39,906 bases of DNA from an uncultured Clostridia bacterium (GTDB lineage: Bacteria > Bacillota > Clostridia > Christensenellales > Borkfalkiaceae), in the NCBI GenBank assembly GCA_947631195.1, contig CANRKK010000023.1, positions 1-39,906 on the forward strand, given 5' to 3'. The translations under genes were made by a program, and so were the position numbers. The first letter of the stretch is position 1, and each line of letters starts with the position of its first letter. Positions 1 to 17,286 of this stretch are shown piece by piece. The notes under the pieces were generated by a model. It saw only the letters and a list, made by a program, of their open reading frames with translations, did no database searches and was not told where the DNA came from.

Positions 1-82
1 TTGTAACAATAACTTCTATTTCTCGTTTGTAAGACTAACTTCCTATCACTCGATAGAACTTACTTTTTCAATTGAGTGTGGC

Positions 83-844
83 TCAATATGGGCTGTCGTC
101 GAAGTAAAGCCCGTCGTAGAGGTCGCCCTCAAACCTGCCGTAGCGTTCCTGTTGCCGAAGGGTGGTATTCTTAACAAGAGAGAAGCTCTCGCCGCGGACT
201 GCTCCATATTTTTTAGATACTTTCATATAGAAATCTTCCTGCAAGTCCGAATAAGAAGTCAACCCACCCCACGCTTTCCAAAACTCCGAATGAGAAAGCA
301 ATGGTTCGTCTATTTCAATGCGTTGCCTATATATAGGCATATCGTACTCATCGCGCATTTGAAGTCTATTGCCTGCTTCGCTTCTGTCATTGCTCATGAT
401 CTTTTCTTGCCACACTTCGGTGACGGGAAGATAATAGACAAAGAGATTTCGCCTGTTCGGCTCTGTTATTATTACTGCACAGATGATGTTCTCATGTGTG
501 TGCAGAAAGCCCACTTTGTCAATAGCGTATTGGTAGCAAACTTTGAAATAGCTTCGTATATCCTGTTCGGAATTGAAGCCGTCCCAAAACTCCCGATTGC
601 CGCCGAATTGCAGACATTCCAAGACAATGTTCTTGCCTCGGTTGTTGAATGTTGCGTTCGTAGACTTCATTACTTTGTTCCACGCCTGTTCGGTCGTGGA
701 CATCTTTTTGAAGTATTCTACCTTGAACCGCTGTTCGCAGTCTTTGAGGTATTCGTCTACACTTTGGAAGTCTTGTGCCTTATGCGATATGACGGAAATG
801 GTCGCGTGCTTGTCTCGCGGATACTTTGGCTTGGGCATTCCCAT
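83..844 (-). CDS. MobV/Pre-like plasmid recombination (relaxase) relative, catalytic histidines missing
   Basis: The C-terminal half resembles the MobV (Pre/Mob) relaxase family: an ENIICAV stretch at residues 118-124, and near residues 183-218 a region like the family's S-x-FW-x-x-x-GG-x-x-SY-x-x-LQ-x-x-FY...KKYG-x-RGE block. Canonical MobV proteins nick plasmid or element DNA using a motif of the type HxDExTPHxH. Here the equivalent segment reads ITEPNRRNLFVYY, so the metal-binding histidines are gone. The 253-residue length is short for a relaxase. The protein may be a degenerate or repurposed DNA-binding relative. It lies downstream of the six-gene operon, separated by a terminator. The ATG at 844 is 31 bases from the only good ribosome site; an in-frame ATT at 868 is better placed. 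Family moderately sure, activity doubtful. Confidence 0.6.
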   Translation of the reverse strand: MGMPKPKYPRDKHATISVISHKAQDFQSVDEYLKDCEQRFKVEYFKKMSTTEQAWNKVMKSTNATFNNRGKNIVLECLQFGGNREFWDGFNSEQDIRSYFKVCYQYAIDKVGFLHTHENIICAVIITEPNRRNLFVYYLPVTEVWQEKIMSNDRSEAGNRLQMRDEYDMPIYRQRIEIDEPLLSHSEFWKAWGGLTSYSDLQEDFYMKVSKKYGAVRGESFSLVKNTTLRQQERYGRFEGDLYDGLYFDDSPY

Positions 845-875
845 TTTGTTCTTGTAATACTTGTAAATCTTGTTT

Positions 876-883
876 CACCTCCT
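876..883 (-). promoter_or_regulatory. Strong Shine-Dalgarno site that points to an ATT start at 868
   Basis: On the minus strand AGGAGGTG ends 7 bases before an in-frame ATT (866-868), eight codons upstream of the ATG at 844. No ATG, GTG or TTG lies at a normal distance. Either the rare ATT codon is used or the site is a leftover of a lost start. Confidence 0.45.
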
Positions 884-894
884 TTTGAGGGCAG

Positions 895-920
895 AAAAAA
901 CAGCCCTTTTTCAAGGACTG
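895..920 (-). terminator. Intrinsic terminator, probably of the six-gene operon
   Basis: Read on the minus strand, CAGTCCTT pairs with AAGGGCTG (one G-U pair) around a GAAA tetraloop and is followed by six T. It lies about 300 bases after the stop of the alpha-CTD/sigma-4 gene and just before the ribosome site of the MobV-like gene, so it could end the operon or attenuate read-through into that gene. Confidence 0.7.
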
Positions 921-1220
921 CTTTATGTGTATAGTTTTCCCCTCCATATATAAGCCACGGGAACGCCGAAATTATTAGTCGATTACAAAAAAATTTTTTT
1001 ATTTCTTAAAACTTTTCCCGTATAGGCATATATTAAAAATTTTTTAACAAATTTTGAACTGAACTTCTTATTTTCTTATGCAACAAAAGTGGGCATTTTT
1101 TTGATGCCTAAGCAGGATAAGGAAGGTGGTACTTTTCCACCTTCGGAGGCAAATTGCGGGAAACCCGCGTTTGTGTTTAAATCACTCTTTTTTTACTCAC
1201 CACCGTAAAATTTAAACACC
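921..1220. other. AT-rich intergenic region with several hairpins
   Basis: This 300-base gap has no convincing gene. It contains an 8-bp hairpin (GAAGGTGG at 1122-1129 with CCACCTTC at 1137-1144), a 5-bp GCGGG/CCCGC hairpin at 1156-1168, and a 10-bp inverted repeat (GTGTTTAAAT at 1173-1182 with ATTTAAACAC at 1210-1219) right after the stop of the upstream gene. The rest is A/T runs. The hairpins may be 3'-end structures of the operon mRNA; no known RNA family was recognised. Confidence 0.5.
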
Positions 1221-3956
1221 CTATAACGAAGAAATTATTTCATCTATAGGATTATAATTCAAAATATTGCTATCCGTAACAGTTTTAAATATATCGTCGC
1301 GCAGCACAACAAGACCATAGCGATTTTCAAGCAATTTTTGCAATTCCGTTACAGATATACAATTCAAATTTTTTATTATAAACTCCAAAAAATCCTTTCT
1401 TGTAAACTTGCTGTCGCCCTTTAAAAATACAATATCTCCGTTCATTTTCCTAAAAGAAAATCTACTGTCCGCACGCAATAACGAAGAATAAAAAAGATTT
1501 CCATATTCAAGACTCTCATATCTATCAATAGTTCCGCGATCAAACAATATTTTTAACGTAAAATACTCATCCTGCGGTGCGCACTCAAACACTTTATCAC
1601 AGAACGATTGAATATCGGAATCTGTAATTCCGAGGTTGTTGATTCTACGTTTATTTACATATTTATCGGGTTCAAACTCAATAATCTCTCTTGTATCTTT
1701 CAGATCAGTCATACAAGTATAAAATGCGCTGATACCCGAATATCTATCGCTTATTTCACTTAAAATTATGATATCATCTGCTGTTAAACATTTTTTGAAA
1801 TATTCATCGGCAGACATCGTATTTTTTATAACGTAATTACAGTAAGGCGTAAACCCAAGCCTCTTTAAATTATATGTAGATATCAAAGCCTCGTCATAAT
1901 GTTTACTTATGGATTTGTACTTCTCTTTTATCTCGTCAATATAATAAAATTCATCTTGCAAAGCACGCTTGAAGACGACAAATTCTTCTTTGGGTAATTC
2001 CTTATTGTCAACAGAATATATGCCGTTATTATAGTAAAGATTAATATTGCCTTCGGTAAACCAGTTTGACTTTATAAACTCGACCTTAAATCCATATTCT
2101 TCACTCAAAAAGTTTGCCAAAGCATCTGCGGATACAGGCGACAAAAGATAAATTGCATCCAACACTGCTTTGCTTCTGCTGAATTCTCCAAATTTTATTG
2201 TCGGATTGCGAGAAAAATTCACATACTCGTCTTCCCCATAAATCTTCCGCAGCAAATTATGTAACTCATATTCGTCCCGCAAATCGTAAGCTTCCATAAG
2301 CTTGGGGTATTCTTTTACAAATTTTTCCGCAGATAGTTCTATATTGCGAAATCTTTTCAAATTGAGCGTTTGCAAAAGCTCGGAAAAATCCATCCCGTCA
2401 ACATCATAATAACGTAAACGACGATTTGGTTTCCAAAGAACTTTATTCGATGAACTTAAATGATTTTCAAAGCTACGCAAATTGCCCGTAATTTGAAACT
2501 TTTTATTATTTGACAGATTGTACTCTTCCAAAAATTCATTATACAGTTTAACAAAATCCTCAAACTTGGTGTCTTCCAGACAATACGTTGAAAGCACGTA
2601 CTCTTGCAACGCTGATTTATTCAGATGAATTTTTTGGCTACCGATAATCAAAAAATCTTTATTCAAAAATTTTTGAACGCCATAGCGCAAATGCAACGAT
2701 AATTTTTCGTCGGAAACCGCGTCGGATAATTCCTTGTCTCCGTTTTTATAGCGCGCAACCAAATAATTCCAAACATATTCGCCTTCTGACGTAATCTCAC
2801 AAAAATCATCACATTCAAGAAAGTAGGTTTCGTAAAAATATTTATACCTATCTTCTTTAACGCAATCTATGGTTTGAGCACGTTTATTTTTTATAAATAT
2901 CTTGTCGTAACCACTTTCTACAATCTGACGGATACGCTCCCTTGTAAGACCATATACTTTGCCTATCTCTTCGAGATTTTCACCGTTTAAACGCCGTGTA
3001 ATTATCTCTATATCCTGTTCGGGCAGAACTTTTACCGCATCTATAATTGAGGGAAAGTTGAAGAAATACCTGTAATCATCCTTATATACTACACCACTCT
3101 CAACTATATTGCCGATATATTTCTCTATCAAAGGTAAATCAATTTTACATTGGAACGCTTCGGCAACTTCTTCTTTTGTAATACCGTCGGCAAGTTTACT
3201 TTTTATCAAATCTTCGATTTTTGCCTCAATCAAATCGCAGAAATTCGGCTCCGATGTTATAGAGGCTATAGCGGTATCCTGCGACCGCTCCTCACCGAGA
3301 TTCAATATACAGCCCAAAATCAGCGAATTTAATTCTTTTTCATTGCTTTCGGTGTATAAAAAAGACATCTGTGCTTTTGCCTCGGCAAAAAGCTTTGCAA
3401 CAAGATTTGCTTCCTCTTCGCTACCCGTTATCGCACATTCCAAAAGTTGATTTCTGAGGGTGGCAAGCTCCGTCAAACTTTTTGCACCCAATCCGGTTAT
3501 TGAAGAAATGTCACCTAATGAAAGAAACTGCCTTGCCGTCATTGCCCGGCACGCCGTCATACGGTTTAAAGAGCGTACAGAAAGCGAAAATTCCGTTATT
3601 GGAATATCCTCAAGCACTTTCCCTTGCCAACGAAAAGCGATAATTTGCATCTTTTTAAGTGGCTTGTCCTTAACTTCATCGCAACCTTTGTTTTCAATCG
3701 CCGCCAATTTCTTTAATATGTCGCTCAGCGTTCCCGCGCCCATATTGCGATAATTCATAATTGTTGCGGTATTTGTCCCTACAAAATCTGAAAGATTTTT
3801 TATACCTTCACGCTTTAAAACATTATACGCCCTAACACTTAACTGTAAATCTTCGATTGGACAATTAGGTATGGAAGCTCCTGTTTCGGCATTTACCAAT
3901 CTGTCTCCCACAAGAGAATAGCCTTCAAATAATACTCTTCCTAAAATTTCATCCAT
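1221..3956 (-). CDS. Protein with two RNA polymerase alpha-CTD domains and a sigma region 4 domain
   Basis: A 911-residue protein. Residues about 33-88 and 117-172 each match the C-terminal domain of RNA polymerase alpha. The first (VRAYN at 41-45) keeps the equivalents of E. coli R265 and N268. The second keeps R265, N268, G296 and K298 equivalents (R128, N131, G157, K159), the residues that grip UP-element DNA. Residues about 310-355 look like sigma region 4, with LTRERIRQI at 337-345 matching the -35-reading helix of sigma70 (R584, E585, R588). There is no sigma region 2 and no alpha N-terminal domain, so it is not a normal polymerase subunit. Residues 360-911 are unrecognised. The ribosome site GAGGAG supports this ATG. 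It is the last gene of the operon; I infer a promoter- or polymerase-directed DNA-binding output protein. Confidence 0.8.
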   Translation of the reverse strand: MDEILGRVLFEGYSLVGDRLVNAETGASIPNCPIEDLQLSVRAYNVLKREGIKNLSDFVGTNTATIMNYRNMGAGTLSDILKKLAAIENKGCDEVKDKPLKKMQIIAFRWQGKVLEDIPITEFSLSVRSLNRMTACRAMTARQFLSLGDISSITGLGAKSLTELATLRNQLLECAITGSEEEANLVAKLFAEAKAQMSFLYTESNEKELNSLILGCILNLGEERSQDTAIASITSEPNFCDLIEAKIEDLIKSKLADGITKEEVAEAFQCKIDLPLIEKYIGNIVESGVVYKDDYRYFFNFPSIIDAVKVLPEQDIEIITRRLNGENLEEIGKVYGLTRERIRQIVESGYDKIFIKNKRAQTIDCVKEDRYKYFYETYFLECDDFCEITSEGEYVWNYLVARYKNGDKELSDAVSDEKLSLHLRYGVQKFLNKDFLIIGSQKIHLNKSALQEYVLSTYCLEDTKFEDFVKLYNEFLEEYNLSNNKKFQITGNLRSFENHLSSSNKVLWKPNRRLRYYDVDGMDFSELLQTLNLKRFRNIELSAEKFVKEYPKLMEAYDLRDEYELHNLLRKIYGEDEYVNFSRNPTIKFGEFSRSKAVLDAIYLLSPVSADALANFLSEEYGFKVEFIKSNWFTEGNINLYYNNGIYSVDNKELPKEEFVVFKRALQDEFYYIDEIKEKYKSISKHYDEALISTYNLKRLGFTPYCNYVIKNTMSADEYFKKCLTADDIIILSEISDRYSGISAFYTCMTDLKDTREIIEFEPDKYVNKRRINNLGITDSDIQSFCDKVFECAPQDEYFTLKILFDRGTIDRYESLEYGNLFYSSLLRADSRFSFRKMNGDIVFLKGDSKFTRKDFLEFIIKNLNCISVTELQKLLENRYGLVVLRDDIFKTVTDSNILNYNPIDEIISSL

Positions 3957-4001
3957 TTACATTCTCCTCGTTTTTCTGTTGAACTAATGACGGCAGACTT
4001 T

Positions 4002-4181
4002 CTACCTGATTTGATATTTATCAAGATTAAGCCCAAACTTTTTTGCATACTGTAAAAGTTGATTTTTGTCGGCCTTTTCAATTTGCGTCAAATCGACTAT
4101 GGCAACAGGTAGTCCGCTGAACATTGCCGCAAGGCATTCATCCACCAAATCTATACGCAATTTTTCTAAATTATAGGTCAT
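4002..4181 (-). CDS. Small hypothetical protein (59 aa)
   Basis: No family recognised. The product is a small, mixed-charge soluble protein with a hydrophobic centre (AAMFSGLPVAIVDL) and no signal peptide. I chose the ATG at 4181 because AAGGAGG sits directly in front of it. An in-frame ATG at 4202 overlaps the stop of the LRR gene in an ATGA arrangement and would add seven residues. The tight packing between the LRR gene and the alpha-CTD/sigma-4 gene (45-base gap) makes it part of the operon and suggests a partner or accessory role for one of them. Confidence 0.65.
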   Translation of the reverse strand: MTYNLEKLRIDLVDECLAAMFSGLPVAIVDLTQIEKADKNQLLQYAKKFGLNLDKYQIR

Positions 4182-4198
4182 CTCCGCCTCCTTATCAA

Positions 4199-6856
4199 TC
4201 ACTCGCTGTCGCCCTTATATCCCCAAACGACTTTGGCTTTGATGCCGTCTGAATCTATATCATCCCAATCTTCATCCCATTCGGGTGGACGCTTTTCGAT
4301 CTTGCAATATATTGTTATATCGGAACAATCTTCAAACACACCGTACTTGATTTTTTTAACTGATGCGGGAATTATTATTTTTTTAAGAGATTTACACCCA
4401 CTAAAAGCTAACAACCCTATCGACTCCAATTCATCAGATAAATTAACTTGCTTCAACGATTCGCAATTTTCAAACGCGCTGTCCCCGATTTCCTTAACTG
4501 CTTCAGGAATTTTAATTGTTTTAAGAGACCTACACATTTCAAAAACACGATGACCCATATTATCTAATCTTTCGGGTAAAACAACCTGCTCCAACGATTC
4601 ACACCATCTAAATGCACTACTTCCTATCGTCTCCACTCCTCCGGGAAGAATAATCCTCTCCAATGATTGACAATATTCCAATGCGGATGCACCAATTTCC
4701 TTAACTGAAGCAGGAATAACTATTGTTTCAAGCGAACTACAGCAATAAAACACATTGTCACCTATTCTCGTCAATCCTTTAGGTAAATTTATATGTTCCA
4801 ATGATTCACAATTTTCAAACGCGCTGTCCCCGATTTCCTTAACATCTTTAGGAATTTTAATTGTTTTAAGTGATTTACAATCCTTAAATGCACCGTTGCC
4901 TATTAAATTTACTGTATCGTGAATCACGACTTCCGTTGCACTTCCCGTATAAGCCACTAACAATGATTTGATAAATATCAAACCATTTTCGTCTTTCAAA
5001 TTTTTGCATCCTTCAAATGCAGATACTGAAATTTCTTCTACAGATTCGGGAACCGTGATTGTTTTAAGAGCATTACAACCGGCAAAAGCTTTTGCACCTA
5101 TCTTTTTTAAACCTTCGGGCAAAACTACCTGCTCCAGCGATTTGTGGTCTTTAAAAACACCATCACCTATTTCGGTGACTTGGATTTTTTTTATCGTGCC
5201 CGGCACACTCACATGGGCACTTCTATCCTTGTAATCGGTAATTTTATAAGTGCCGTCATCCTTTTTAACAAACGACCAAATCTTCCTCAATTCGGTTAAA
5301 GTAGGCTCTTTTATCTCAAATTGTTTATTGAATTGCCGCTCTTTTTGCTTCTCGGTAAAATTCTTTTCTTTATAATCAAGCAAAGCAGCAACACGGACTA
5401 CGTTCTTTTCTTCGTTGAATTTGGCAATTAACTCATCCACATCCTTCAATGAAATCAATTCGTTTTGTAGCATATATAAAAATAGTGCTTCGTTCTTTGT
5501 ATCAATTAGTGCTTTTATGTTTTGCTTTATATATCTTTTATTTGTTTCAATAATGGCACTATTTATTCCCACCCCTTTGTTGATAAGTTCAACAACCCCG
5601 ATAAGATATGCTTGTTGTTGATTATAACCATTAAATTCCGTAACGCTTGATTTTTCCGAATAAATAACTTCTATCCCTTCAAGAGCTCCCGGTTCCATTT
5701 GGGGTATTACCTCTTTAAAAACAACTGATTTACAGTCATCAAATGCATAGCCGCCTATTTCTTTTACCGAAGTTGGAATTGTAACACATTTAACGGATTT
5801 GCAACCTTTAAAAGCTCCCCACTCAATCGTCTCCAACCCTTCAGATAAATTAACCTGCTCCAGTGCTTCACAGCTATCAAAAGCCCATCTTCCTATTTCC
5901 ATTACAGAGGCGGGAAGAATGATTGAATTTAGCAACTTACAACTTTCAAACGCGTATTCACCTATAGTTTTTAACCCGTCCGAAAAAGTAATTTGTTTTA
6001 TATTCTTATTTTTAAACGCGCCGCTCCCTATAACTGTCGTCTCTTGGGGTATAGACACTTCCGTTGCTTCGCCTGTATAAGCGACCAACAATGTCCCGAT
6101 AGATATAAAACCGTCCTCAGCTATCAATCCCGTGCAACCTTCAAATGCCGATGAATCAATTTTTGGTTTTGCGCCGTCGGAAAGAATAACTTGCTCTAAT
6201 GCAGTGCAATTTTTAAATGCTTTTGCCTTGATTTCTTTGACCGAGGAAGGAATAGTAACAGTTTTAAGATTAGACCTGTTGGCAAATGCTTCTTCGCCTA
6301 TTATTTCGATACTTTCGGGGACCATGGCACTTTTGGCACTGCTTGAAAATACAATTAAATATGTATCAGCAACATAAAATCCATCTTGAACTTTAAGACT
6401 GCTGCACCCCGCAAAAGCCGACTTCGGACAACTTGTTACGGAATCGGGGATTTTGATAAATTTTAATGATTTGCACGCATTAAAAGCTTTATGTCCTATC
6501 GTTTTTAAACCTTCGGCAAGATTTACACTTTCCAAAGACTCACAATTGTCAAAGGCAAACTCTCCAATCGTCTTAACCGCAGATGGAATACTGATTGTTT
6601 CTAACGCCGTACACCCACGAAAAGCGAAGTTACCAATGGATAGCAGACCATCCGGTAAAACTATACTTTTCATTTTAGACCTTTCAAACGCTGCATGAAA
6701 AATCGCATTCACAGAAGGCGGCAGTATAATTCGTTTAGCATTGCTACCCCAAAATGCAGATCTCCCTATCTTTTCCACACCATCGGGAACTATTACTTCT
6801 TCCGCATTCCCGTTATATTTAACAAGCGTTGTCTTATTGATTTCAAATTCTGCCAT
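4199..6856 (-). CDS. Cytoplasmic BspA-type leucine-rich repeat protein
   Basis: An 885-residue protein made of two LRR_5 (BspA/TpLRR-like) arrays, about residues 10-400 and 525-865, with repeats of the form L-x-x-I-x-I-P-x-S-V-K-x-I-G-x-x-A-F-x-x-C. Between them lies a helical, charged segment (about 410-520) with some ankyrin-like character. BspA-type LRRs usually mediate protein binding at the cell surface, but this one has no signal peptide, lipobox, membrane segment or wall anchor, so it should be cytoplasmic. Repeats close to each other are strongly similar even at DNA level, for example around 4440-4500 and 4795-4850, which allows repeat exchange. It lies 44 bases downstream of the MoxR gene in the operon. 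I infer a ligand-binding or sensing role. Confidence 0.88.
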   Translation of the reverse strand: MAEFEINKTTLVKYNGNAEEVIVPDGVEKIGRSAFWGSNAKRIILPPSVNAIFHAAFERSKMKSIVLPDGLLSIGNFAFRGCTALETISIPSAVKTIGEFAFDNCESLESVNLAEGLKTIGHKAFNACKSLKFIKIPDSVTSCPKSAFAGCSSLKVQDGFYVADTYLIVFSSSAKSAMVPESIEIIGEEAFANRSNLKTVTIPSSVKEIKAKAFKNCTALEQVILSDGAKPKIDSSAFEGCTGLIAEDGFISIGTLLVAYTGEATEVSIPQETTVIGSGAFKNKNIKQITFSDGLKTIGEYAFESCKLLNSIILPASVMEIGRWAFDSCEALEQVNLSEGLETIEWGAFKGCKSVKCVTIPTSVKEIGGYAFDDCKSVVFKEVIPQMEPGALEGIEVIYSEKSSVTEFNGYNQQQAYLIGVVELINKGVGINSAIIETNKRYIKQNIKALIDTKNEALFLYMLQNELISLKDVDELIAKFNEEKNVVRVAALLDYKEKNFTEKQKERQFNKQFEIKEPTLTELRKIWSFVKKDDGTYKITDYKDRSAHVSVPGTIKKIQVTEIGDGVFKDHKSLEQVVLPEGLKKIGAKAFAGCNALKTITVPESVEEISVSAFEGCKNLKDENGLIFIKSLLVAYTGSATEVVIHDTVNLIGNGAFKDCKSLKTIKIPKDVKEIGDSAFENCESLEHINLPKGLTRIGDNVFYCCSSLETIVIPASVKEIGASALEYCQSLERIILPGGVETIGSSAFRWCESLEQVVLPERLDNMGHRVFEMCRSLKTIKIPEAVKEIGDSAFENCESLKQVNLSDELESIGLLAFSGCKSLKKIIIPASVKKIKYGVFEDCSDITIYCKIEKRPPEWDEDWDDIDSDGIKAKVVWGYKGDSE

Positions 6857-6900
6857 TGTAATTTTCTCCTTAAATTATAAATATAGAAAACTGTACAGGT

Positions 6901-8403
6901 TTAATCGTCGTCGTAAAGCTGTTCGAGTTGGGCTATTATATCCAAACCGCGCTCGTATATCAAAAGACTTTTATTGTGCGCAAAGTACTCGGGACATCCG
7001 TACTTGCCGAGGAACTCCGCACAGTTTGCGTTGGCAGTGAGCTCTACGATGAAAATGGAAAGCTCTTGCTCGCTGAAAACTTTATCGCAGAAATTTATTG
7101 CGTTTGAAAGAGCCTTACTGACAGTCGAAGCGCGTTTTTTAAGTTTTGCAACTTCCTCATCAATGCCGCTTTTTATTTGCTTTGCCGCTTCCTTGCGGTC
7201 CGACTTGTTTTCTATCTGCGAAGCTATTTTGCGGAGATTTGCGGCCGCTTTTAATATTGCCCACTCCCTGTCGGAGGAAAGCGCACCCGAGGCTTTTAAG
7301 TTTGCGGCCTTTTGCTCCATTTCACCGAGAGCCTCAGAAAGCATTTTGCTCGGTTCTCCGCTTATCGGCATAAACATAAACGTCCGCAAAACTTCGGCCT
7401 GTGCGCCCAAGATTTTTTCTTCGCCTATTACTTCCCTCATTCCCGAGGCATTTGCTTCAAGCAACAGTCCGATGAGCGAATACTTTTCGTCGAACTTACC
7501 GCTCTTTGCCCTTTCACAGAGGTCGTCGCCCGCCTTGCCTTCCAAAATATCCTGTATGCGATAATCTTTTTTGTAGGCGTTGTACAGCTCATAGTAGTTG
7601 GCAAAATCGGCGGCTATACCTTTATCCTGAAGGTATTGGGCGATAAGCCTGTAGTCCACCTTGATATTGTTTATCTCGTAGAGGTCAATCATCTTGCCCA
7701 AATCGTCCCAGCCCCTTGCGGTGACAAACGTTTTGCCGTCAACCGTCGTTGAAATATTGTAAAAATTGTTGCGCTTTATGCCCAAATATGTAGTTATGGC
7801 GGGGTGGACGCCCGTCTTATATGCAAACTCCTTCCATACCTCGAAGTCGGGCTCAACATCTATTCGCTTGAGCCTGTCCCATGTGGCGACGTCGAACTCC
7901 CGCACAGAGTCGTTATACTCCGCGGGGTTGCCCGCCGTGACAACAATCCAGCCGTCAGGAACTTTATGCTTGCCAAACACCTTATATTGCAAAAACTGCA
8001 ACATTACGGGGGCGAGCGTTTCGGAGACGCAGTTTATCTCGTCGATAAACAAAATGCCCTCTTTAACACCAGTTCCCTCCATCAAATCGTAGACCGAGGC
8101 TATAATTTCGCTCATGGTGTACTCGGAAATATTGTACTCCTTGCCGCCGTAAGTTTTATGCTCGATGAACGGCAGGCCCAAAACGCTCTGCCTCGTGTGG
8201 TGCGTCATAGAATATGACAACAGCCCCACGCCTATTTCTTCGGCAATCTGCTTCATTATCGCCGTTTTTCCTATGCCGGGCGCGCCCATCAAAAATATGG
8301 GGCGCTGTTTTTCGGGCGGAATGCAGTATCTCCCCAATTCGTCCTTCGTGAGGTATGCCGTTATCGTGTTTTTGATCTGTTCTTTGGCGTCTTTTATATT
8401 CAT
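6901..8403 (-). CDS. MoxR-type AAA+ ATPase
   Basis: About 500 residues. An N-terminal AAA+ module has Walker A GAPGIGKT (about 40-47), Walker B ILFIDE (about 117-122) and a sensor-1 region VVTAGNP. The fold and context are those of MoxR ATPases, which use ATP to remodel partner complexes together with VWA proteins (E. coli RavA-ViaA is an example). The C-terminal half is helical with a coiled-coil-like stretch near 360-430 and matches no domain I know. The start at 8403 follows GGAGAAG; a GTG four codons upstream is less likely. It begins 24 bases after the VWA-protein stop, which supports co-expression of the pair. Confidence 0.88.
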   Translation of the reverse strand: MNIKDAKEQIKNTITAYLTKDELGRYCIPPEKQRPIFLMGAPGIGKTAIMKQIAEEIGVGLLSYSMTHHTRQSVLGLPFIEHKTYGGKEYNISEYTMSEIIASVYDLMEGTGVKEGILFIDEINCVSETLAPVMLQFLQYKVFGKHKVPDGWIVVTAGNPAEYNDSVREFDVATWDRLKRIDVEPDFEVWKEFAYKTGVHPAITTYLGIKRNNFYNISTTVDGKTFVTARGWDDLGKMIDLYEINNIKVDYRLIAQYLQDKGIAADFANYYELYNAYKKDYRIQDILEGKAGDDLCERAKSGKFDEKYSLIGLLLEANASGMREVIGEEKILGAQAEVLRTFMFMPISGEPSKMLSEALGEMEQKAANLKASGALSSDREWAILKAAANLRKIASQIENKSDRKEAAKQIKSGIDEEVAKLKKRASTVSKALSNAINFCDKVFSEQELSIFIVELTANANCAEFLGKYGCPEYFAHNKSLLIYERGLDIIAQLEQLYDDD

Positions 8404-8427
8404 AATCTTCTCCACTTTGTTTTTCTT

Positions 8428-9816
8428 TCATATGTCCTCGGGCTCGAGAATAAGTTTTATTGCCCACGGGGGAACTTCGTAATTGTTGTAATCGCTGTCT
8501 ATAAACACAAACGCCGTGTTGTACTGCGGTTTGCGTTCGGGGAATGTGCCATAGCCGTCCGTAAAGTAGATGAGGCCTTTCAGATTTATAAATTCGCCCA
8601 TATCAATCAGTTGGGTTACATACTGAAAGACGGGTCTGAAATCCGTTCCCCCTAAGCCGTACAGCTTCATATCCGCAAAATAGGTTTCAAGCTCGGAAAG
8701 GTTTGTGATTTTAGTATCTTTTTGAATTTTGGCGTCGCATTGAATGATGTGAATGTTGATCTTCCGGCTGTAACTCTCCTGTTGTTTCAAAATGTTATAG
8801 GTCTTATGGATGAACGCCTGCACCTTTTCGCCGGCAACCGACCCCGACGTGTCTATCGCAATAACAAACTCCCTGATTTGCTTTACGTCCTTATATTCCA
8901 ACGGCTCGACAAGCGGCATATTGCCGTACAGCTTAAGCCCCAACGTGTAAAAGACATAGTCGAACTCGTCCTGATTTATTTTCATTGCCTCGTTCATAAC
9001 GGCAAACTTTTTAAGGAAGGCCTCGTAGTTGTATTTTTCGCGGTTGACCTCTTTTAAGGCCATAGCCATACTGCCCGATTTTCGACCCCACTCGGCGGAA
9101 AACGTTTCCAGATCGGTCTGTACCCGCTCGGCAAGCTCTTTCCATGCGCGGCTGATTTTCTCCGCCTCTGCAAAGGTGATTTTACCCACAGAGCCGCCGT
9201 TTTCCGAAAAAACACCTCCCGCCGAATAAGTGTTCATCTCACCGGCTTCGGTTTTTCCTGTGGAAACGGTAATCTCGGCAGTAAGGCTATAGCCCCAAGC
9301 CGAGTGGTCGTCGCAGACAAAAAGTTTCTCCCACGATTGTAAAGTTTCTTCGGGGATTTTTTCGGATTTTAGATAGGCATATATCTTTTCGGCCGTCAAA
9401 AATTTGGTCTTGTCCTTTATTTCTTCGGCGCACATACTGCGGCTCTGCCCCGATTTGACTGAAGTACACGGCAGTCCCCACTCGCATATTATCGACTCAA
9501 CCGCAATATCGCAAGCGAGGTTCCAATACCTTGCGTCGGCAAGCGAAAACGGATGCCGAAACAGGCAATGCAACAAAATGTGCAGGTATGCCCTTACCGT
9601 TTCTTCCTTGCCAGACTTATATAGCCCTATTATGTGGTCGGGGTTGAAATATACCGTCCGCGCGTTGGTGGCAATCGTTCCGTCGTAATGCTCAAAATCA
9701 AGCATTGTAAATGCTGCGTTCAAAAAGCGCATATTTACCAAAAGCGTACTTTCGGCAATATGCAATATCTCCGCCGCAATCCTTGCTTTTCTGTTTTGTA
9801 ATTCTGTTTTATACAT
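8428..9816 (-). CDS. DUF2201-type metallopeptidase-like and VWA domain protein
   Basis: A 462-residue protein. The N-terminal part matches the DUF2201 putative metallopeptidase: HILLHCLFRHPF at 79-90 followed by WNLACDIAV. The usual HExxH-like site reads HILLH, so the catalytic glutamate is replaced by isoleucine. The C-terminal VWA domain has an intact MIDAS metal site: DTSGS at 322-326, the threonine of GGTDF near 391, and TDG at 419-421. Such proteins pair with MoxR ATPases, and the MoxR gene follows directly. An upstream ATG at 9954 would overlap most of the preceding gene, so the ATG at 9816, just after that gene's stop, is preferred although its ribosome site is weak. Translation may be coupled to the preceding gene. 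Confidence 0.83.
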   Translation of the reverse strand: MYKTELQNRKARIAAEILHIAESTLLVNMRFLNAAFTMLDFEHYDGTIATNARTVYFNPDHIIGLYKSGKEETVRAYLHILLHCLFRHPFSLADARYWNLACDIAVESIICEWGLPCTSVKSGQSRSMCAEEIKDKTKFLTAEKIYAYLKSEKIPEETLQSWEKLFVCDDHSAWGYSLTAEITVSTGKTEAGEMNTYSAGGVFSENGGSVGKITFAEAEKISRAWKELAERVQTDLETFSAEWGRKSGSMAMALKEVNREKYNYEAFLKKFAVMNEAMKINQDEFDYVFYTLGLKLYGNMPLVEPLEYKDVKQIREFVIAIDTSGSVAGEKVQAFIHKTYNILKQQESYSRKINIHIIQCDAKIQKDTKITNLSELETYFADMKLYGLGGTDFRPVFQYVTQLIDMGEFINLKGLIYFTDGYGTFPERKPQYNTAFVFIDSDYNNYEVPPWAIKLILEPEDI

Positions 9817-9830
9817 ATTTTTGCTACCAA

Positions 9831-10322
9831 TCAGATTACTGCTTTCATAATTTGCCCAAAAAATATCCCCGAAGCTTCGGCAATTAACTTTATCGCTCGG
9901 CAAATTTTTTCGGTTTTTTGGTTCTCTGCAATTTCTAAACCTTTCAAAGTGCAAATATAGGCGTTGGCGCCATATGAATTTCCCAAATTTTGTTCTTCAA
10001 TCAATCCCATCTTCACCAAATTGTCTATCATCTTATCGAACGCTTCTTGGTAAAGTCCAAGCATAGCGTTATCAATGAATTTTCTTTTAAAAATAGCCAA
10101 CAACAATATTGCCATTCTTTTGTAATCATCTAAATTTTTAAACCTTTTTACAGAAAACGGGTATCTTGACCCATAAGGTACATAATACCTCCCTTTACGC
10201 TGAATAATGCCAGGTATTTCATTGCGACGACGTTTGATTTGGTTTTCGCTGATTTTGCACAATCCCGAAAAATTTTCTATGTCTATGTATCTTTTGCCGT
10301 CAATTTCATATGTCTGTTCCAT
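9831..10322 (-). CDS. Small HTH-like protein, first gene of the operon
   Basis: A 163-residue protein with no family I can name. Residues about 13-50 (YIDIENFSGLCKIS, a basic RRR segment, then KGRYYVPYG) look like a winged or MerR-type helix-turn-helix with a wing. The remainder is helical (LLLAIFKRKFIDNAMLGLYQ, residues about 93-112). AAAGGAGAT in front of the ATG fixes the start. It is the promoter-proximal gene, and an inverted repeat overlaps the promoter just upstream, so autoregulation of the operon is a reasonable inference. It could equally be a structural subunit working with the VWA protein. Confidence 0.65.
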   Translation of the reverse strand: MEQTYEIDGKRYIDIENFSGLCKISENQIKRRRNEIPGIIQRKGRYYVPYGSRYPFSVKRFKNLDDYKRMAILLLAIFKRKFIDNAMLGLYQEAFDKMIDNLVKMGLIEEQNLGNSYGANAYICTLKGLEIAENQKTEKICRAIKLIAEASGIFFGQIMKAVI

Positions 10323-10365
10323 TCCGTAAATCTCCTTTCATTTAATTCTTACTTTTTTCACAGAC

Positions 10366-10400
10366 ATTATAACATACTAAATATGACACAAACAGTCATA
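10366..10400 (-). promoter_or_regulatory. Extended -10 promoter with inverted repeat, six-gene operon
   Basis: On the minus strand TGTTATAAT is an extended -10 element (TATAAT at 10366-10371). No good -35 is seen; at that position lies the inverted repeat TATGAC (10382-10387) / GTCATA (10395-10400) with a 7-base spacer, a plausible operator. The ATG is about 43 bases downstream of the -10. Confidence 0.6.
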
Positions 10401-10518
10401 ATTTCAAAAATTTTTTTCAAAAAAATTTCCTTATATAGAATAACATTATTCCTCGGTAAAATCAATAGCATGCCGTGATTTGTTTTTATAATCAGGTTGT
10501 TTTGTCGTCTGTATCTTT

Positions 10519-10592
10519 TCTTTACTTTTCCCAGATTTCATAGCAAAAATCTTTACTTTTTGTGAGTGGTATGCTATAATAAGTAAAGATTT
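10519..10592 (+). promoter_or_regulatory. Fic gene promoter embedded in three operator-like repeats
   Basis: TTTACT (10552-10557), a 17-base spacer and extended -10 TGCTATAAT (TATAAT 10575-10580) form the promoter. A perfect 12-bp inverted repeat, AAATCTTTACTT (10547-10558) and AAGTAAAGATTT (10581-10592), overlaps the -35 and abuts the -10. TCTTTACTTTT also occurs as a direct repeat at 10519-10529 and 10550-10560, 31 bases apart (about three helical turns). Confidence 0.75.
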
Positions 10593-10604
10593 GAGAGGTA
10601 AATT

Positions 10605-11516
10605 ATGATTTCCTATGCGGGGCTTTTGGAAATTTTAAAGAAAAACGGTCTGAAAAAGTCCGATTTGACGGCGAAAGCCGGTATATCTTCGCGCACGATT
10701 GCCAAGATTTCAAAGGGCGAAAAGATCGCCGACAACGTCATAAAACGGCTATGCGAATTTTTCGACTGTAACAGCGAGGATATTTGCCGCGAGATAAGCG
10801 ACAATCCCGTTTTGCAGGTGTTGCGCGACGAAAAGAGCGCAAAGTTAAGCGGTGGGCTGTACCACGAAACGCAGATTCGCTTGACGTACAACTCCAACCG
10901 CATAGAGGGCAGCCGCCTTTCCGAGGACCAGACCCGCCTGATATTCGAGACAAACACGATAGGCGCAGAGGAAGGCGTACCCGTGGACGACATCATCGAA
11001 ACCGCCAACCACTTCCGCGCGGTGGACTATGTTATAGACTGCGCCGAACAGCCCCTCACCGAAGAGATAATCAAAACTCTTCATAAAATAATAAAGACGG
11101 GCACGAAGGATTCATATTTAACTTGGTTCAACGTTGGCGAACACAAAAAACGCGCCAACGTGGTGGGCGGAATTGAAACGGTTGCACCATCAAAAGTCGC
11201 AGAAAAAATGAAGGGGCTGTTGCAAAACTATAACAGCAAAACGGAAATAAAAATTGAGGACATAGTTGAATTTCACTATAATTTTGAGCGCATCCACCCC
11301 TTCCAGGACGGAAACGGCAGGGTGGGCAGGCTGATATGTTTTAAGGAGTGTTTGCGGCATAAAATAATCCCTTTCATCATCGAGGATAGAAAGAAAATGT
11401 TTTACTACCGCGGCTTGCGTGAATGGGGAAACGAGAGAGTTTATTTGATTGACACCTGCCTTGACGGGCAGGACACCTACAAGGCGTTGTTGAAATATTT
11501 CGGGATAGATGAATAA
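10605..11516 (+). CDS. HTH-Fic protein, class II autoinhibited AMP-transferase type
   Basis: A 303-residue protein. Residues 1-63 are an XRE-type helix-turn-helix. SNRIEG at 97-102 matches the inhibitory motif (S/T)xxxE(G/N), whose glutamate blocks ATP binding; its position before the Fic core defines class II. HPFQDGNGRVGR at 231-242 is an intact Fic motif, so the enzyme should transfer AMP or a related group to a target protein. GAGAGG before the ATG supports the start. The fused DNA-binding domain and the repeats spanning its promoter suggest it represses its own gene. No separate antitoxin is present, consistent with built-in inhibition. The target is unknown. Confidence 0.9.
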   Translation: MISYAGLLEILKKNGLKKSDLTAKAGISSRTIAKISKGEKIADNVIKRLCEFFDCNSEDICREISDNPVLQVLRDEKSAKLSGGLYHETQIRLTYNSNRIEGSRLSEDQTRLIFETNTIGAEEGVPVDDIIETANHFRAVDYVIDCAEQPLTEEIIKTLHKIIKTGTKDSYLTWFNVGEHKKRANVVGGIETVAPSKVAEKMKGLLQNYNSKTEIKIEDIVEFHYNFERIHPFQDGNGRVGRLICFKECLRHKIIPFIIEDRKKMFYYRGLREWGNERVYLIDTCLDGQDTYKALLKYFGIDE

Positions 11517-11523
11517 TAAAATT

Positions 11524-11561
11524 AAAGGCAGAACCGCGGATTTACAAGCGATTCTGCCTTT
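11524..11561. terminator. Bidirectional terminator between convergent genes
   Basis: AAAGGCAGAA (11524-11533) pairs with TTCTGCCTTT (11552-11561), with three further inner pairs after one mismatch. On the minus strand it is followed by TTTAATTTTATT-like T-rich sequence outside the stem, so it best serves the gene at 11582, while also lying just after the fic stop. Confidence 0.7.
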
Positions 11562-11581
11562 GGTAAATGTATAATTATTCC

Positions 11582-12196
11582 CTATCCGTTCCAGCAGGAG
11601 GAGGTTACGGGGTTGTCGGCTATAAGCGTTCTCAGATCATTCAGCTCCTTTCTCAGCGTTTGCAGGTCAAAACTGATCCTTGTCCCTCTGCCATTAAAAG
11701 TATAATAGACAAAATTCTGTTTGTCGTACGTCCTCAAATGATAATTGTCGTTGATTGCGTCTCTGATAAACGAATCGGTGTTTTCGTCAAGCAGATTGTA
11801 GTCCCCCACAACATATCCAGCCGCGTCATATCTTTCGTCAAAGTGCGTATTGGTGTTCCTCGCCTCCTTGTTGAATATCGTAGGGAAACGCCGCTTGTCC
11901 ACGCCGAACGTCTGTCTCATCTGCAGGCTGCGTATGCCGGGGTCTGCATGGGGCCAAAACCTGACATTGCGGTTCAAATTATAAAATATGTCGTACAGGT
12001 TGCCGCAGGCATTCAATATGCTCTGTATGTAAAAAAAATAAAAGGTATGCTCGTCGTGATAAATCCCCCAATCAAAATCGCTGTGGTTAAAAATATAGTC
12101 CAACGAGACCAGCGCAAAATCGATATTTTTTAACGCCATATTGGCAAATATAAATTCTTTGTTGGTTCCGTCAATTTTAATGTATTTGTTTAACAT
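11582..12196 (-). CDS. Hypothetical protein with a HEPN-like R-x4-H motif
   Basis: A 204-residue soluble protein, mainly helical by inspection, which I do not recognise. It contains RNTNTHFDERYD near residues 113-124. RN-x3-H fits the R-x4-6-H signature of HEPN ribonucleases, where the residue after R is often polar, but a short motif alone cannot prove membership. The segment NACGNLYDIFYNLN upstream resembles helices of HEPN-type proteins of unknown function. The start follows GGGGAT with an ATG at a normal distance. It is convergent with the fic gene and flanked upstream by dispersed repeats. Confidence 0.6.
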   Translation of the reverse strand: MLNKYIKIDGTNKEFIFANMALKNIDFALVSLDYIFNHSDFDWGIYHDEHTFYFFYIQSILNACGNLYDIFYNLNRNVRFWPHADPGIRSLQMRQTFGVDKRRFPTIFNKEARNTNTHFDERYDAAGYVVGDYNLLDENTDSFIRDAINDNYHLRTYDKQNFVYYTFNGRGTRISFDLQTLRKELNDLRTLIADNPVTSSCWNG

Positions 12197-12231
12197 ATCG
12201 TATCCCCTTTTTTATACCTGTTGCCGCCAAA

Positions 12232-12648
12232 TTTAACAGCGCCCGCCGCAAGCGTTCCGCTTGACGGCTCCGCCGCCGCGGCCGGGTATCTTTATTGCGT
12301 TGGCGGTAAACAGAGTTTTTCGCACGTCAAACTTGAAACAATCCCCTCAGTCACCTATCGGTGACAGCTCCCCCTACTACGGGGAGCCACGGCAGAAAGA
12401 AAGGCCCCGCCTCCCCTTATGTTTTAACAATATTGGGGGGGGGTGGGTGGGACAAAATATAAAAAGCAACGTGACGTTGCATTCGGGTTTCTTTATAGCG
12501 TTAACGCTTGATTGGGATTCCCGCACGTCAAACTTTAATGACAATCCCCTCAGTCACCTATCGGTGACAGCTCCCCCTACTACGGGGAGCCACGGGGGGG
12601 GGAGCGTCAGCCAGCACTCACTTACTAAGGGAAGCCAAGGGAGGCGCG
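12232..12648. repeat. Dispersed structured repeats, family A (one full, one partial copy)
   Basis: No gene. The full copy (12421-12593) has, in order, TTTTAACAATATT plus a G-rich run, the palindrome GCAACGTGACGTTGC, AGCGTTAACGCT, the hairpin GTCACC-TATC-GGTGAC and CTCCCC/GGGGAG. A tail-only copy lies at 12320-12395. Nearly identical sequence recurs at 28598-28767, and the first part recurs at the window end. Small open frames here are repeat by-products. Confidence 0.85.
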
Positions 12649-13401
12649 TTAGGGGAGTTTGTTATATTCCTCGTCGGGGACGGGTTCAAGCCACTCGTTG
12701 GAGGCGTTTTCGCCAGGCACTTCTATCGCTAAGTGGGAAAACCAGCTGTCCTTCGCCGCGCCGTGCCAGTGCTTTACTCCCGCAGGAATGTTGACGCAGT
12801 CGCCCGGCTTCATTTCCACGGCCTCTTTGCCCCACTCCATATACCAGCCTCTGCCCGCAACGCAGATTAAAATTTGCCCGCCTCCCTTTGAGGCGCGGTG
12901 AACGTGCCAGTTGTTGCGGCAGGAAGGTTCGAACGTGACGTTAAAAATGCCGACCTGTTCTTTGGATACGGGCGCAAGGTAGCTTTTGCCGCTGAAATAT
13001 TGCTTAAAGCCGTCGTTGGGCGCGCCTATGGGGAACGCCATAGAATTTGCGTGCGCGGCCATTGCCGTTTCTGCGCTTTCCTCCGCCCACACTTCCTTTG
13101 CCATGTTGAACACCGCCCACGCCTTGGGCCAGCCCGCATAAAAGGCTACGTGGGTGACTACCGCGGCTATCTCGCTCTTGGTTACGCCCGCCCTTTTTGC
13201 GTTTTCCAGATGGTACTTTAAGGAGCTGTCGGTAATGCCCGACGACATCAGCGCAACCACCGTTATTATGCAGCGAGTCTTGTGGTCTATATCCCCGTTG
13301 TTCCAGTTTTCGCCGAACAGAATATCGTCGTTATAGTGCGCAAATTCGGGAGCGAACTCCCCCAGCGATTTTCTGCCCGCGTCCTGCGTTATCTTTTTCA
13401 T
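12649..13401 (-). CDS. Carboxymuconolactone decarboxylase-like and cupin fusion protein
   Basis: A 250-residue protein. Residues about 1-95 match the CMD/AhpD-like helical family (tail KSEIAAVVTHVAFYAGWPKA). It lacks the CxxC of true AhpD, so a peroxidase role is doubtful. Residues about 125-225 are a cupin barrel with metal-ligand candidates in NWHVHRASKGGGQ and PAGVKHWHG. CMD-cupin pairs and fusions are common in Bacillota redox operons, but their substrate is generally unknown. AAAGGAGAT before the ATG fixes the start. It is the last gene of the MarR-led operon, 13 bases after the cyclophilin-like gene. Confidence 0.88.
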   Translation of the reverse strand: MKKITQDAGRKSLGEFAPEFAHYNDDILFGENWNNGDIDHKTRCIITVVALMSSGITDSSLKYHLENAKRAGVTKSEIAAVVTHVAFYAGWPKAWAVFNMAKEVWAEESAETAMAAHANSMAFPIGAPNDGFKQYFSGKSYLAPVSKEQVGIFNVTFEPSCRNNWHVHRASKGGGQILICVAGRGWYMEWGKEAVEMKPGDCVNIPAGVKHWHGAAKDSWFSHLAIEVPGENASNEWLEPVPDEEYNKLP

Positions 13402-13414
13402 AATTTATCTCCTT

Positions 13415-13918
13415 TTAATTTAAACTTATCGTTATCGTGATGCTGCCCTCACCCGCGGCGAGCAGGGTTTTGAGTTCTTCCGCCGAATATCCCGTTATTT
13501 TTCCGAGTTTGGTGTACGCCCACGAGTTGCTCCCGTAAAAAATAACTATCTGGTTGCCCGAATATAGCATGACGTCCCCCGCTTTTGCGGTTATTTGCGA
13601 ATCGCTGTGCGGAAGGGACCGCCCCAAGCTGCCCACCTTTTCAAAACCGCCGTAGTCGTCGGCGGTATAGGTTATGTCTCCCTCTTTCAGAAGTCCGGCG
13701 AGCGCCCGTGCCGCCGCGTTGTTTTCGGGCGCAACCGCAATTTTGTTTCCGTTTACCGTAAAATAAATATTTTCAACCATTTGCTCCTCCCCGCTCTGTT
13801 GTCCGCCGACGTTCGCGCTGTTATTTCCGCCCGTTTCTTCTCCGTCCGTGCATGCGGCGAAGAGCGCCAAACATACAGCGAGCAAAACCGGCGTTATCAA
13901 CATAAAAAACTTTTTCAT
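13415..13918 (-). CDS. Lipoprotein with cyclophilin-like fold domain
   Basis: A 167-residue predicted lipoprotein: MKKFFMLITP signal, lipobox LFAAC with Cys23, a short Gly/Asn linker, then a cyclophilin-like domain at about 50-167. Diagnostic features are the conserved ARALAGLLKEG, DYGGFEKVGSLGRSLP, GDVMLYSGNQIVIFYGSNSW and YTKLGKI segments. The domain resembles cyclophilin in fold, but prolyl-isomerase activity is not established for this family. Members commonly neighbour flavodoxins and CMD/cupin proteins, as here. AAGGAA precedes the ATG. Membrane-anchored on the outside of the cell. Confidence 0.87.
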   Translation of the reverse strand: MKKFFMLITPVLLAVCLALFAACTDGEETGGNNSANVGGQQSGEEQMVENIYFTVNGNKIAVAPENNAAARALAGLLKEGDITYTADDYGGFEKVGSLGRSLPHSDSQITAKAGDVMLYSGNQIVIFYGSNSWAYTKLGKITGYSAEELKTLLAAGEGSITITISLN

Positions 13919-13944
13919 GATTTATTCCTTAATTATGCGCGCCG

Positions 13945-15285
13945 TTAAAGGTTTAAGCCGTCTATCCACGATTGTACGTCGTCTTTTGCAGAGGACGAGA
14001 AAAACCGTCTGCCCGCTTTCCAATCGCCCGCGCCCGCTAAATTTTTAAGTTGGTCGTCGCTGTTGCCCACGTCCGAACTTGCTGCGGTGCAGAAGGGCAC
14101 TACCGTCTTTCCCGTGAAATCGTTGGCCTTAATAAAGCCGTTTACGGGCCACGCCGCCTCTCCCCACCAAATGGGATAGCCGACGAAAACCGTAGTATAA
14201 TCTTCCCAATTGTCGGGCGCGGATTTTACCAGCGGAATATCCCGCAGGCTTTGGTCGCCGTGTTCCTTTGACACGCGGCTGTTGCCGTCCCCGTATTTCA
14301 AATCGTCGGCGGTATAGGGGTTTTGCGGCACGAGTTCAAAAGTGGTTGCCCCCGTGATATCCGCGATATAACCCGCAATCTTTTCGGTGTTGCCCGTCGC
14401 CGAAAAGTAGACGACGAGAATATGACTTGTTTGCGCGTCCGAGCAGACGATCTCCGCATTTTCGTTGCCCATATTCCAATATTTCGACGACGCCGCCATG
14501 AGCGTATCCCACTCTTCGGAAGTGCCTTTATAGACGACTTTTGTAATTGCGCTGTCGGAGATCGCGTATTTTTCAATGGAGGTGACGGACTTAGGAATAG
14601 TGAGCGTCGTCATTGTAGCTCTGCGGAACGCCGCCGCGCCGATTTTTGTAACCGTTTCGGGAATGACGCTTTGATTGCTTCCGCGGATGAGCGTGTTCGT
14701 TTCAAGGTCGATGAGGCAATTCCCCGCGCCCGAATAGCGGGTGTTCCCCGCCGCAACGGTGATCGTGTCAAGTGCGCCGCAGTTGTTGAAAACGTCGTCG
14801 CCAAGTTCCGAAAGTCCTGCGGGAAGATATATGGATTGGAGCGAACTGTTGCCCGAAAAGGCGTTGTTGCCGATTTTTTTAAGTTTGCTGTTTGTGCCGA
14901 TATTCACCGACGCGAGCGCGCTTTGATTGTGGAAGGCGTTTTTGCCGATCTCCGTCACGCTGTCGGGAATGAGCACGGAAAGGATAGCCGACGTGTGTTG
15001 CGCATAGCCGAATGCGCTGTCCGCGATGCCGACGACGGGTTCGCCCTCGTGTTCGGCGGGAATGACGATATTTGCCGTCTGCCCCTCATCGCCCGTGACG
15101 ATATAGCCTTCTTGCGCCGCGCTTTTTTCAAACGTGAGCGTATCTGTGGCCTCATGGTTTGCGTCACCGCCGCCGTTCGCGCTGTTATTTCCGCCCGTTT
15201 CCCCTCCGCAGGCGGAGAACACGAAAGCGGAAATCAGGCAAAGCGCCGTTGCAATCATTATAAATAATTTTACAGTTTTTTTCAT
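13945..15285 (-). CDS. Lipoprotein fusing BspA-type LRRs to a flavodoxin domain
   Basis: A 446-residue protein with a signal peptide and lipobox ending in Cys26 (FSACGG), BspA-type LRR_5 repeats at about 50-280, and a flavodoxin domain at about 288-446. ILVVYFSATGNTEKIAG at 289-305 is the FMN phosphate-binding loop, and GYPIWWGEAAWP is the second FMN-binding region. Flavodoxins carry electrons through bound FMN and are normally cytoplasmic; here the domain should sit outside the membrane. The reading frame runs through both parts without a stop. The neighbouring cyclophilin-like lipoprotein shares the N-terminal linker style (GGNNSAN), which suggests duplication of the signal module. Confidence 0.88.
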   Translation of the reverse strand: MKKTVKLFIMIATALCLISAFVFSACGGETGGNNSANGGGDANHEATDTLTFEKSAAQEGYIVTGDEGQTANIVIPAEHEGEPVVGIADSAFGYAQHTSAILSVLIPDSVTEIGKNAFHNQSALASVNIGTNSKLKKIGNNAFSGNSSLQSIYLPAGLSELGDDVFNNCGALDTITVAAGNTRYSGAGNCLIDLETNTLIRGSNQSVIPETVTKIGAAAFRRATMTTLTIPKSVTSIEKYAISDSAITKVVYKGTSEEWDTLMAASSKYWNMGNENAEIVCSDAQTSHILVVYFSATGNTEKIAGYIADITGATTFELVPQNPYTADDLKYGDGNSRVSKEHGDQSLRDIPLVKSAPDNWEDYTTVFVGYPIWWGEAAWPVNGFIKANDFTGKTVVPFCTAASSDVGNSDDQLKNLAGAGDWKAGRRFFSSSAKDDVQSWIDGLNL

Positions 15286-15295
15286 GATATTTCCC

Positions 15296-15589: not shown

Positions 15590-15606
15590 ACCGTCCCCCA
15601 AAAAAA

Positions 15607-16595: not shown

Positions 16596-16626
16596 AACTT
16601 CTCCTGAAATCCCAATTCGTATTTTA

Positions 16627-17240: not shown

Positions 17241-17245
17241 GAGCA

Positions 17246-17277: not shown

Positions 17278-17286
17278 GTGAACATG

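Follow-up and report, generated by a model that had tools for sequence, protein, structure and literature searches.

A conserved and apparently undescribed trio of MoxR, VWA and leucine-rich repeat genes in Clostridia

We analysed a stretch of 39,906 nucleotides (hereafter the window) from contig CANRKK010000023.1 of an uncultured Clostridia bacterium (assembly GCA_947631195.1), in which six closely spaced minus-strand open reading frames (ORFs) lie at positions 1221-10322. Three of them, encoding a MoxR-like AAA+ ATPase, a VWA protein of the DUF2201 type and a leucine-rich repeat (LRR) protein, make up a conserved and apparently undescribed system; the set of six does not. On balance, we lean towards reading this core as a remodelling machine powered by ATP, whose cytoplasmic recognition subunits can be exchanged and dock via a helical domain. 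The computed support for this reading consists of the linkage of the genes, the conservation of the ATPase and MIDAS motifs, the loss of a zincin glutamate, the lack of an export signal, a helical domain confined among the sampled genomes to those with MoxR, and a recognition part that diverges faster than its partners.

Distribution and linkage of the trio

Using a four-sequence MoxR alignment as the query at a lax threshold, we recovered at least 520 relatives in named genomes and retained the best 80 loci, all at 50% identity or above. Most of these come from Clostridia bins of gut and rumen; three genomes bear the names Aveggerthella or Paraeggerthella. A VWA relative accompanies MoxR in 72 of the 80; six of the eight exceptions have less than 5 kb upstream, and two (L077 and L091) have no VWA gene despite sufficient room. 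Counting LRR genes by their repeat parts alone, leaving out matches through the helical domain described below, gave an LRR gene in 54 of the 80 loci, 49 of them with one on the same strand within 2.5 kb. When helical-domain proteins are admitted as well, 62 of the 80 have one as close to MoxR. Same-strand LRR coverage declines with distance from MoxR, at 26, 15, 9 and 5% in consecutive 2.5 kb bins, compared with 0-2% on the opposite strand. The LRR genes stand before, between or after the MoxR-VWA pair, and their number varies from 0 to 9.

The system is common where sampled, with MoxR in 19 of 341 genomes of the class at E-values up to 1e-60 (the match covers 310 residues only in G759 and 218 in G724). 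We examined the surrounding regions in 18 of these 19 genomes, leaving out G600. VWA adjoins MoxR in all 18, split over two ORFs in G714 and truncated by the contig end in G724, and an LRR-similar gene adjoins the pair in 11, lying one to three genes off in G659, G291 and G618. Full-length MoxR was found in 4 of 299 phylum genomes, the window's own included, and in 1 of 93 genomes of the genus, again the window's own; two other genus genomes carry a MoxR relative of 28% identity over about 250 residues. A first-pass annotation of the window, made from its sequence alone, had raised the question of whether the operon is constant core DNA of the species. With full-length MoxR limited to one genus genome in 93, the operon is instead accessory.

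The MoxR-VWA pair

The MoxR gene (6901..8403, minus strand) scores 28.5 bits against Pfam AAA_5, for which the cut-off is 22, and stays under the cut-off for bpMoxR (18.4 of 27 bits). Its ORF opens at GTG 8415; the family start is ATG 8403, which is matched by three MoxR relatives in the alignment that begin MNIxxAK, and translation probably starts at 8403 for MoxR and at 9816 for VWA. The P-loop and Walker B stretches are nearly invariant in the four-sequence alignment. The VWA gene (8428..9816, minus strand) exceeds the Pfam cut-offs for both DUF2201_N (36.9 of 23.2 bits, E 4e-09) and DUF2201 (52.1 of 26.4 bits, E 8.9e-14), and the MIDAS residues DxSxS, T and D are invariant in all 70 aligned VWA proteins. 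A Pfam scan of the window protein gave no fused effector domain above cut-off, and the VWA domain ends seven residues before the C-terminus.

The VWA proteins also hold a zincin-like HxxxH motif, both histidines of which are kept in 69 of the 70 (one row is gapped). We considered whether VWA might be an active zincin metallopeptidase with an HExxH motif. The second position of HxxxH is occupied by M in 19 proteins, I in 10, T in 9, V in 9, S in 8, L in 7, A in 6 and C in 1. Since the catalytic Glu is found in none of the 69, peptidase activity is unlikely.

Excerpts of PMC9976466 describe how, in NorQ-NorD, a finger of the VWA domain plugs the MoxR ring, the MIDAS site of that domain being its proposed route to the target. 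By analogy, the MoxR ring encoded in the window would be plugged by the VWA protein, which would pass force to the target by way of its MIDAS metal site. The recognition subunit, an LRR_5 protein in the window and at other loci also a DUF6273, DUF4132 or ankyrin protein, would dock through the helical domain of about 60 residues and, once docked, would bring the target to MoxR-VWA. We infer all three elements of this scheme, namely the formation of a complex, the helical domain as the dock and the LRR protein as the finder of targets.

A helical domain shared by the putative recognition proteins

The LRR protein (885 aa; 4199..6856, minus strand), the putative recognition subunit, matches Pfam LRR_5 at 592.9 bits. 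It has LRR_5 repeats in common with BspA-type surface proteins; however, we found no export signal in it. In a simple hydropathy test its N-terminus scores 0.62, against 2.46 for an LRR lipoprotein elsewhere in the window, in agreement with the earlier claim that the operon's LRR protein carries no such signal.

Within the LRR protein lies a helical domain of about 60 residues (aa 441-500; 5357..5536, minus strand), a putative dock for MoxR-VWA, with a pLDDT of 87 in the predicted structure and no Pfam match. A profile of this domain finds it in 63 of the 80 MoxR loci, where it is also attached to DUF6273, DUF4132 or ankyrin parts. Tandem DUF6273 proteins bearing it replace the LRR protein at several MoxR-VWA loci (L105, L106, L110, L116 and others), and DUF4132 is combined with it at L059:10787-12307, L060:13490-15010 and L117:3763-5832. 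The 80 loci encode 105 helical-domain proteins, 98 of them on the MoxR strand. As only two of the 105 have a hydrophobic N-terminus by the simple hydropathy test, these proteins are probably cytoplasmic. In the class sample the domain occurs in 8 of the 341 genomes, all within the 19 that have MoxR (Fisher p = 1.8e-11), and 11 of its 12 matches share a contig with MoxR and are no more than about 8 kb from it; in the phylum sample it occurs in 2 of 299 genomes, both among the four with full-length MoxR. The domain predicts which proteins belong to the machine. Separately, a 998 aa protein beside MoxR-VWA at L058:13867-16863 joins LRR_5 to a C-terminal BRCT domain.

A common helical domain could equally be the grip point of a chaperone. 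The LRR and other helical-domain proteins would then be clients, and MoxR-VWA a chaperone devoted to their assembly, maturing or disassembling them. Precedents can be cited: the characterised NorQD acts on a dedicated client (PMC9976466, in excerpt), and at the yeh locus of E. coli a DUF4132 gene, yehI, lies near a different MoxR-VWA pair, yehL (MoxR) and yehP (VWA). We nevertheless regard this arrangement as less likely, given that proteins of differing folds have only the small helical domain in common, that up to nine LRR genes surround a single pair (L060), and that the LRR proteins change faster than the machine, as described next, which is a better fit to recognition.

Rates of change within the trio

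We compared rates of change in 12 non-overlapping locus pairs with MoxR identity above 70%, chosen in order of identity from 43 eligible; one further pair was left out because in none of its LRR pairs did the alignment reach half the length. The best-matching LRR protein is less conserved than VWA in 11 of the 12 pairs, and VWA is less conserved than MoxR in all 12. Two DUF6273 pairs (L106-L110 and L105-L116) follow the same trend. Between the window and L049, for example, MoxR is 75% identical, VWA 64% and LRR 32%. A recognition role fits both this faster divergence and the private helical domain, which speaks for the suggestion in the first-pass annotation that the LRR protein is the sensor. 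Close loci can also differ in copy number: L059 and L060, with MoxR 97% identical, carry four and six LRR genes over the corresponding 10 kb downstream of it.

As its likeliest role, the trio would keep watch in the cytoplasm for something variable, perhaps proteins of phages or mobile elements. One may go further and picture, in gut Clostridia and their relatives, a single MoxR-VWA motor that serves a whole fast-changing cytoplasmic recognition set through the common helical domain, much as adaptors are swapped on a ubiquitin ligase or as in an NLR repertoire. This broader picture we offer tentatively, as something possible that we would not yet expect to hold. If true, the MoxR-VWA systems would gain a new kind, built on LRR proteins and immune in role, in bacteria that are not known as multicellular.

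Several observations weigh against the reading of the core as a machine with exchangeable recognition subunits. The pair L059-L060 departs from the rate trend, with MoxR at 97%, VWA at 94% and the best LRR at 94%, and the faster change of LRR can also reflect relaxed constraint or repeat shuffling. LRR genes are absent from 26 of the 80 loci, several of which are on short contigs and some of which have DUF6273 or ankyrin proteins, and no LRR-like gene was seen in four of the 18 class regions (G371, G714, G724 and G759). In 11 of the 19 class genomes with MoxR there is no detectable helical domain. The helical-domain profile was itself derived from proteins flanking MoxR, and versions of the domain elsewhere could therefore be missed. 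The 80 loci, being the closest relatives among at least 520, are not a random sample. Matches of the core to PADLOC are weak, and the binding of MoxR, VWA and LRR to one another is a prediction from sequence.

Comparison with known systems

MoxR-vWA ternary conflict systems (VMAP, iSTAND, FtsH), as outlined in excerpts of PMC7159879, comprise MoxR, vWA and a third, lineage-specific component, and variable modules are common to them and to the system described here. Conceptually, we see in the trio a MoxR-VWA ternary system whose third component is of a new kind: LRR_5, DUF6273, DUF4132 or ankyrin, many with the helical domain. It differs further in that its VWA is of the DUF2201 type without a fused effector and its bpMoxR match is below cut-off. 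None of the scanned window proteins matches a VMAP, iSTAND or FtsH Pfam model, and a fast-evolving iSTAND could escape Pfam. In the main text of PMC7159879, the terms 'leucine', 'DUF2201' and 'DUF4132' do not occur and 'LRR' occurs once, in a reference title. Among the matches listed from the open-licence literature, we found no paper on an LRR-VWA-MoxR trio. If the recognition proteins are sensors, the MoxR-VWA conflict systems would gain recognition by cytoplasmic LRR proteins.

RavA-ViaA and NorQ-NorD have in common with the trio a MoxR AAA+ protein with a VWA partner, from which a ring-and-plug mechanism is expected; the likeness to NorQ-NorD comes from the published mechanism and not from a comparison of sequences. 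LARA, RavA_C and lid domains are present in E. coli RavA and missing from the window MoxR, and the two proteins align over 119 residues at an hhalign probability of 67%. The yeh locus also resembles L059, L060 and L117 in placing a MoxR-VWA pair near a DUF4132 gene; the genes listed for it include no LRR gene. YehP, however, is VWA_CoxE and not DUF2201, aligning with 93 columns of our VWA profile at a probability of 26%, and YehL aligns with the MoxR profile over only 29 residues. Membership of the window proteins in the RavA, YehL or YehP families was rejected on these profile alignments and domain differences. Because the yeh and window-type pairs differ in family, it looks as though the same kind of partnership has been made twice. 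PADLOC gave no credible match for any core gene: its matches to the core are weak and concern MoxR only, the best being IetA (26 bits, E 1.2e-6), which spans MoxR residues 7-66 alone, the P-loop region.

The six-gene cluster and its SIG protein

The six ORFs are tightly packed, as had been noted: with VWA starting at 9816 and MoxR at 8403, the intergenic gaps in reading order are 14, 24, 44, -4 and 45 bases. Pfam likewise confirms the names DUF2201-VWA, MoxR-like AAA, LRR_5 and alpha-CTD/sigma region 4 that the annotation had given to the gene products, and leaves its helix-turn-helix (HTH) below threshold. The HTH belongs to the first gene (163 aa; 9831..10322, minus strand), whose winged-helix match to HTH_45 is weak (E 0.0097, 16.3 of 25.5 bits) and which has no relative across the 92 fetched stretches searched. 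The fifth gene (66 aa; 4002..4202, minus strand) encodes a small protein matching no family above cut-off; two MoxR loci hold relatives of it, L058 (E 2.5e-5) and, with a weak match, L061 (E 0.011). The last gene (1221..3956, minus strand) encodes a protein of 911 aa, here called SIG, in which an alpha-CTD-like domain (3.8e-20) and sigma region 4 (3.8e-08) precede a long C-terminal part. In the window copy, the first gene, if a winged-helix regulator, and SIG probably control expression.

A single promoter and a single terminator for the cluster are neither established nor ruled out by the scan counts and promoter-like sites. The promoter scan of the window returned 43 sites, against 30.7 +/- 5.0 in shuffles, and the terminator scan 14 against 11.7 +/- 3.7; neither picked out a single promoter or terminator, and the three top-scoring minus-strand promoter-like sites fall within the operon. 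The AT-rich character ascribed to the set holds for SIG, the small gene and LRR only (32-40% GC), whereas MoxR and VWA stand at 45-48%; the remainder of the window is mostly at 46-60%.

A nine-row family profile of SIG matches the solved alpha-CTD (E 7e-16) and region 4 of SigA (E 3e-10). The residues that we take to be the DNA contacts of the E. coli alpha-CTD are partly kept, with Arg and Asn present in the window protein and, in L054, the GKKS-type loop as well. The predicted structure of SIG is poor (pLDDT 47.8, from 3 sequences). SIG lies near MoxR in three loci, namely the window, L054 and L086. In L054 it shares the strand of MoxR and comes second after it, with a HEPN_Swt1 gene between the two and a HIRAN gene after. 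In L086 it is on the strand opposite MoxR at a distance of about 7 kb, and the next gene encodes a small protein that by eye resembles the L054 HIRAN one. Three of the 299 phylum genomes carry SIG, the window's own included, and the other two (G152 and G175) have no full-length MoxR; a partial relative is present in G050.

Beyond these genomes, IMG/VR yielded one SIG relative, on the viral contig L135, followed by the BREX type 4 genes BrxP, BrxC and PglZ, and INPHARED held no match to the window SIG. The L135 relative is longer, in a 1449 aa frame directly 5' of the BREX type 4 genes (region L135:9974-22694), and the genes upstream of it are phage-like by eye. Relatives on plasmids number 62 records (48 Enterococcus, 12 Streptomyces and 2 Exiguobacterium). 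SIG matches the plasmid proteins listed over 65-80% of its length; the Enterococcus ones are annotated as sigma factor-like helix-turn-helix DNA-binding proteins. On three Enterococcus plasmids (L148, L149 and L150) SIG is followed by a protein of about 400 aa and a DEAD/DEAH helicase, not by MoxR, and type I restriction, Fic or MazF genes lie inside the fetched stretches; this three-gene set looks like an undescribed defence cassette. In PglW of BREX type 2, too, there is an alpha-CTD-like domain, with wHTH modules after it (PMC12839542, in excerpt); unlike PglW, SIG has no kinase match in Pfam. From its gene neighbourhoods, SIG is a module that roams among loci, several of them defence-like, and because it recurs beside unrelated defence genes the family is a separate lead.

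These neighbourhoods bear on whether the whole operon is an anti-phage or anti-plasmid system, in which LRR would sense an intracellular invader protein, MoxR-VWA would trigger a response and SIG would turn the operon on. A defence role is plausible, and this specific scheme we hold to be an appreciable, if minority, possibility. It would suit the accessory distribution (1 of 93 genus genomes), the fast divergence of LRR and the presence of SIG relatives beside BREX type 4 genes and HEPN_Swt1 (L054) and near plasmid type I restriction and Fic genes. It sits less well with the weak PADLOC matches to the core and with a window set in which Pfam reveals no obvious killing domain. Viral databases do not help it either: the single MoxR match in IMG/VR (20%) is not credible, and INPHARED gave six matches over 80% of the query at 44-49%, plus a partial one at 62%, all on short, unannotated human-fecal contigs labelled Bacteriophage sp., which we take, without proof, to be bacterial DNA.

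Another question is whether the six genes are in part chance neighbours, the trio having come to lie beside an unrelated SIG and an unrelated regulator in a plastic region. This is quite possible, if short of an even chance. SIG is found mostly elsewhere; LRR, the small gene and SIG exceed MoxR and VWA in AT content; none of the 92 stretches searched holds a relative of the first gene; and the fetched stretch of G006, although syntenic with the DNA to the right of window 1-18080, gave no DNA match to that part itself. Conversely, all six genes lie on one strand with tight spacing, SIG recurs near MoxR in L054 and L086, and with SIG in about 1% of genomes a rough estimate predicts only about 0.006 such loci among 80 by chance. 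The first-pass annotation had treated the six genes as one unit to be sought in other genomes. MoxR-VWA-LRR does recur; we rejected a six-gene system as such, SIG being mostly elsewhere and the first gene lacking relatives in the searched stretches. On sequence grounds, SIG and the small protein are best described as occasional partners of the trio.

Genomic surroundings

The assembly is large (2.34 Mb), with 4.3% contamination, and we therefore considered whether the contig might be a contaminant. A flanking binding-protein gene is 93% identical to that of G006, a genome of the same genus, and window 18080-28400 is largely syntenic with G006; the contig thus fits the genus, which counters this concern. 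Window 1-18080, on the operon side, is a plastic region, for which the fetched G006 stretch gave neither a clean empty site nor exact boundaries. The relaxase relative said to lie beside the set is weak, its MobV score being 18.3 of 100 bits, with no Pfam match. The divergent neighbour of the operon is an HTH-Fic gene (10605..11516, plus strand) that we leave out of the system, with a Fic match of 1.7e-17 and a strong PADLOC match to PDC-S04 (6e-108). Further along, at 13945-15285 on the minus strand, is a lipoprotein-like gene that by eye joins LRR_5 to flavodoxin and whose product, unlike the operon LRR protein, has a hydrophobic N-terminus.

Other genes near MoxR in the relatives include small helical proteins that are HEPN-like by eye (L051:1324-1860, L058:16980-17453 and L086:6421-6933), with a sub-threshold HEPN match in L086 alone. 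Genes for SbcD-like nucleases, again recognised by eye, lie near the MoxR locus in 4 of the 80 (L057, L059, L062 and L086).

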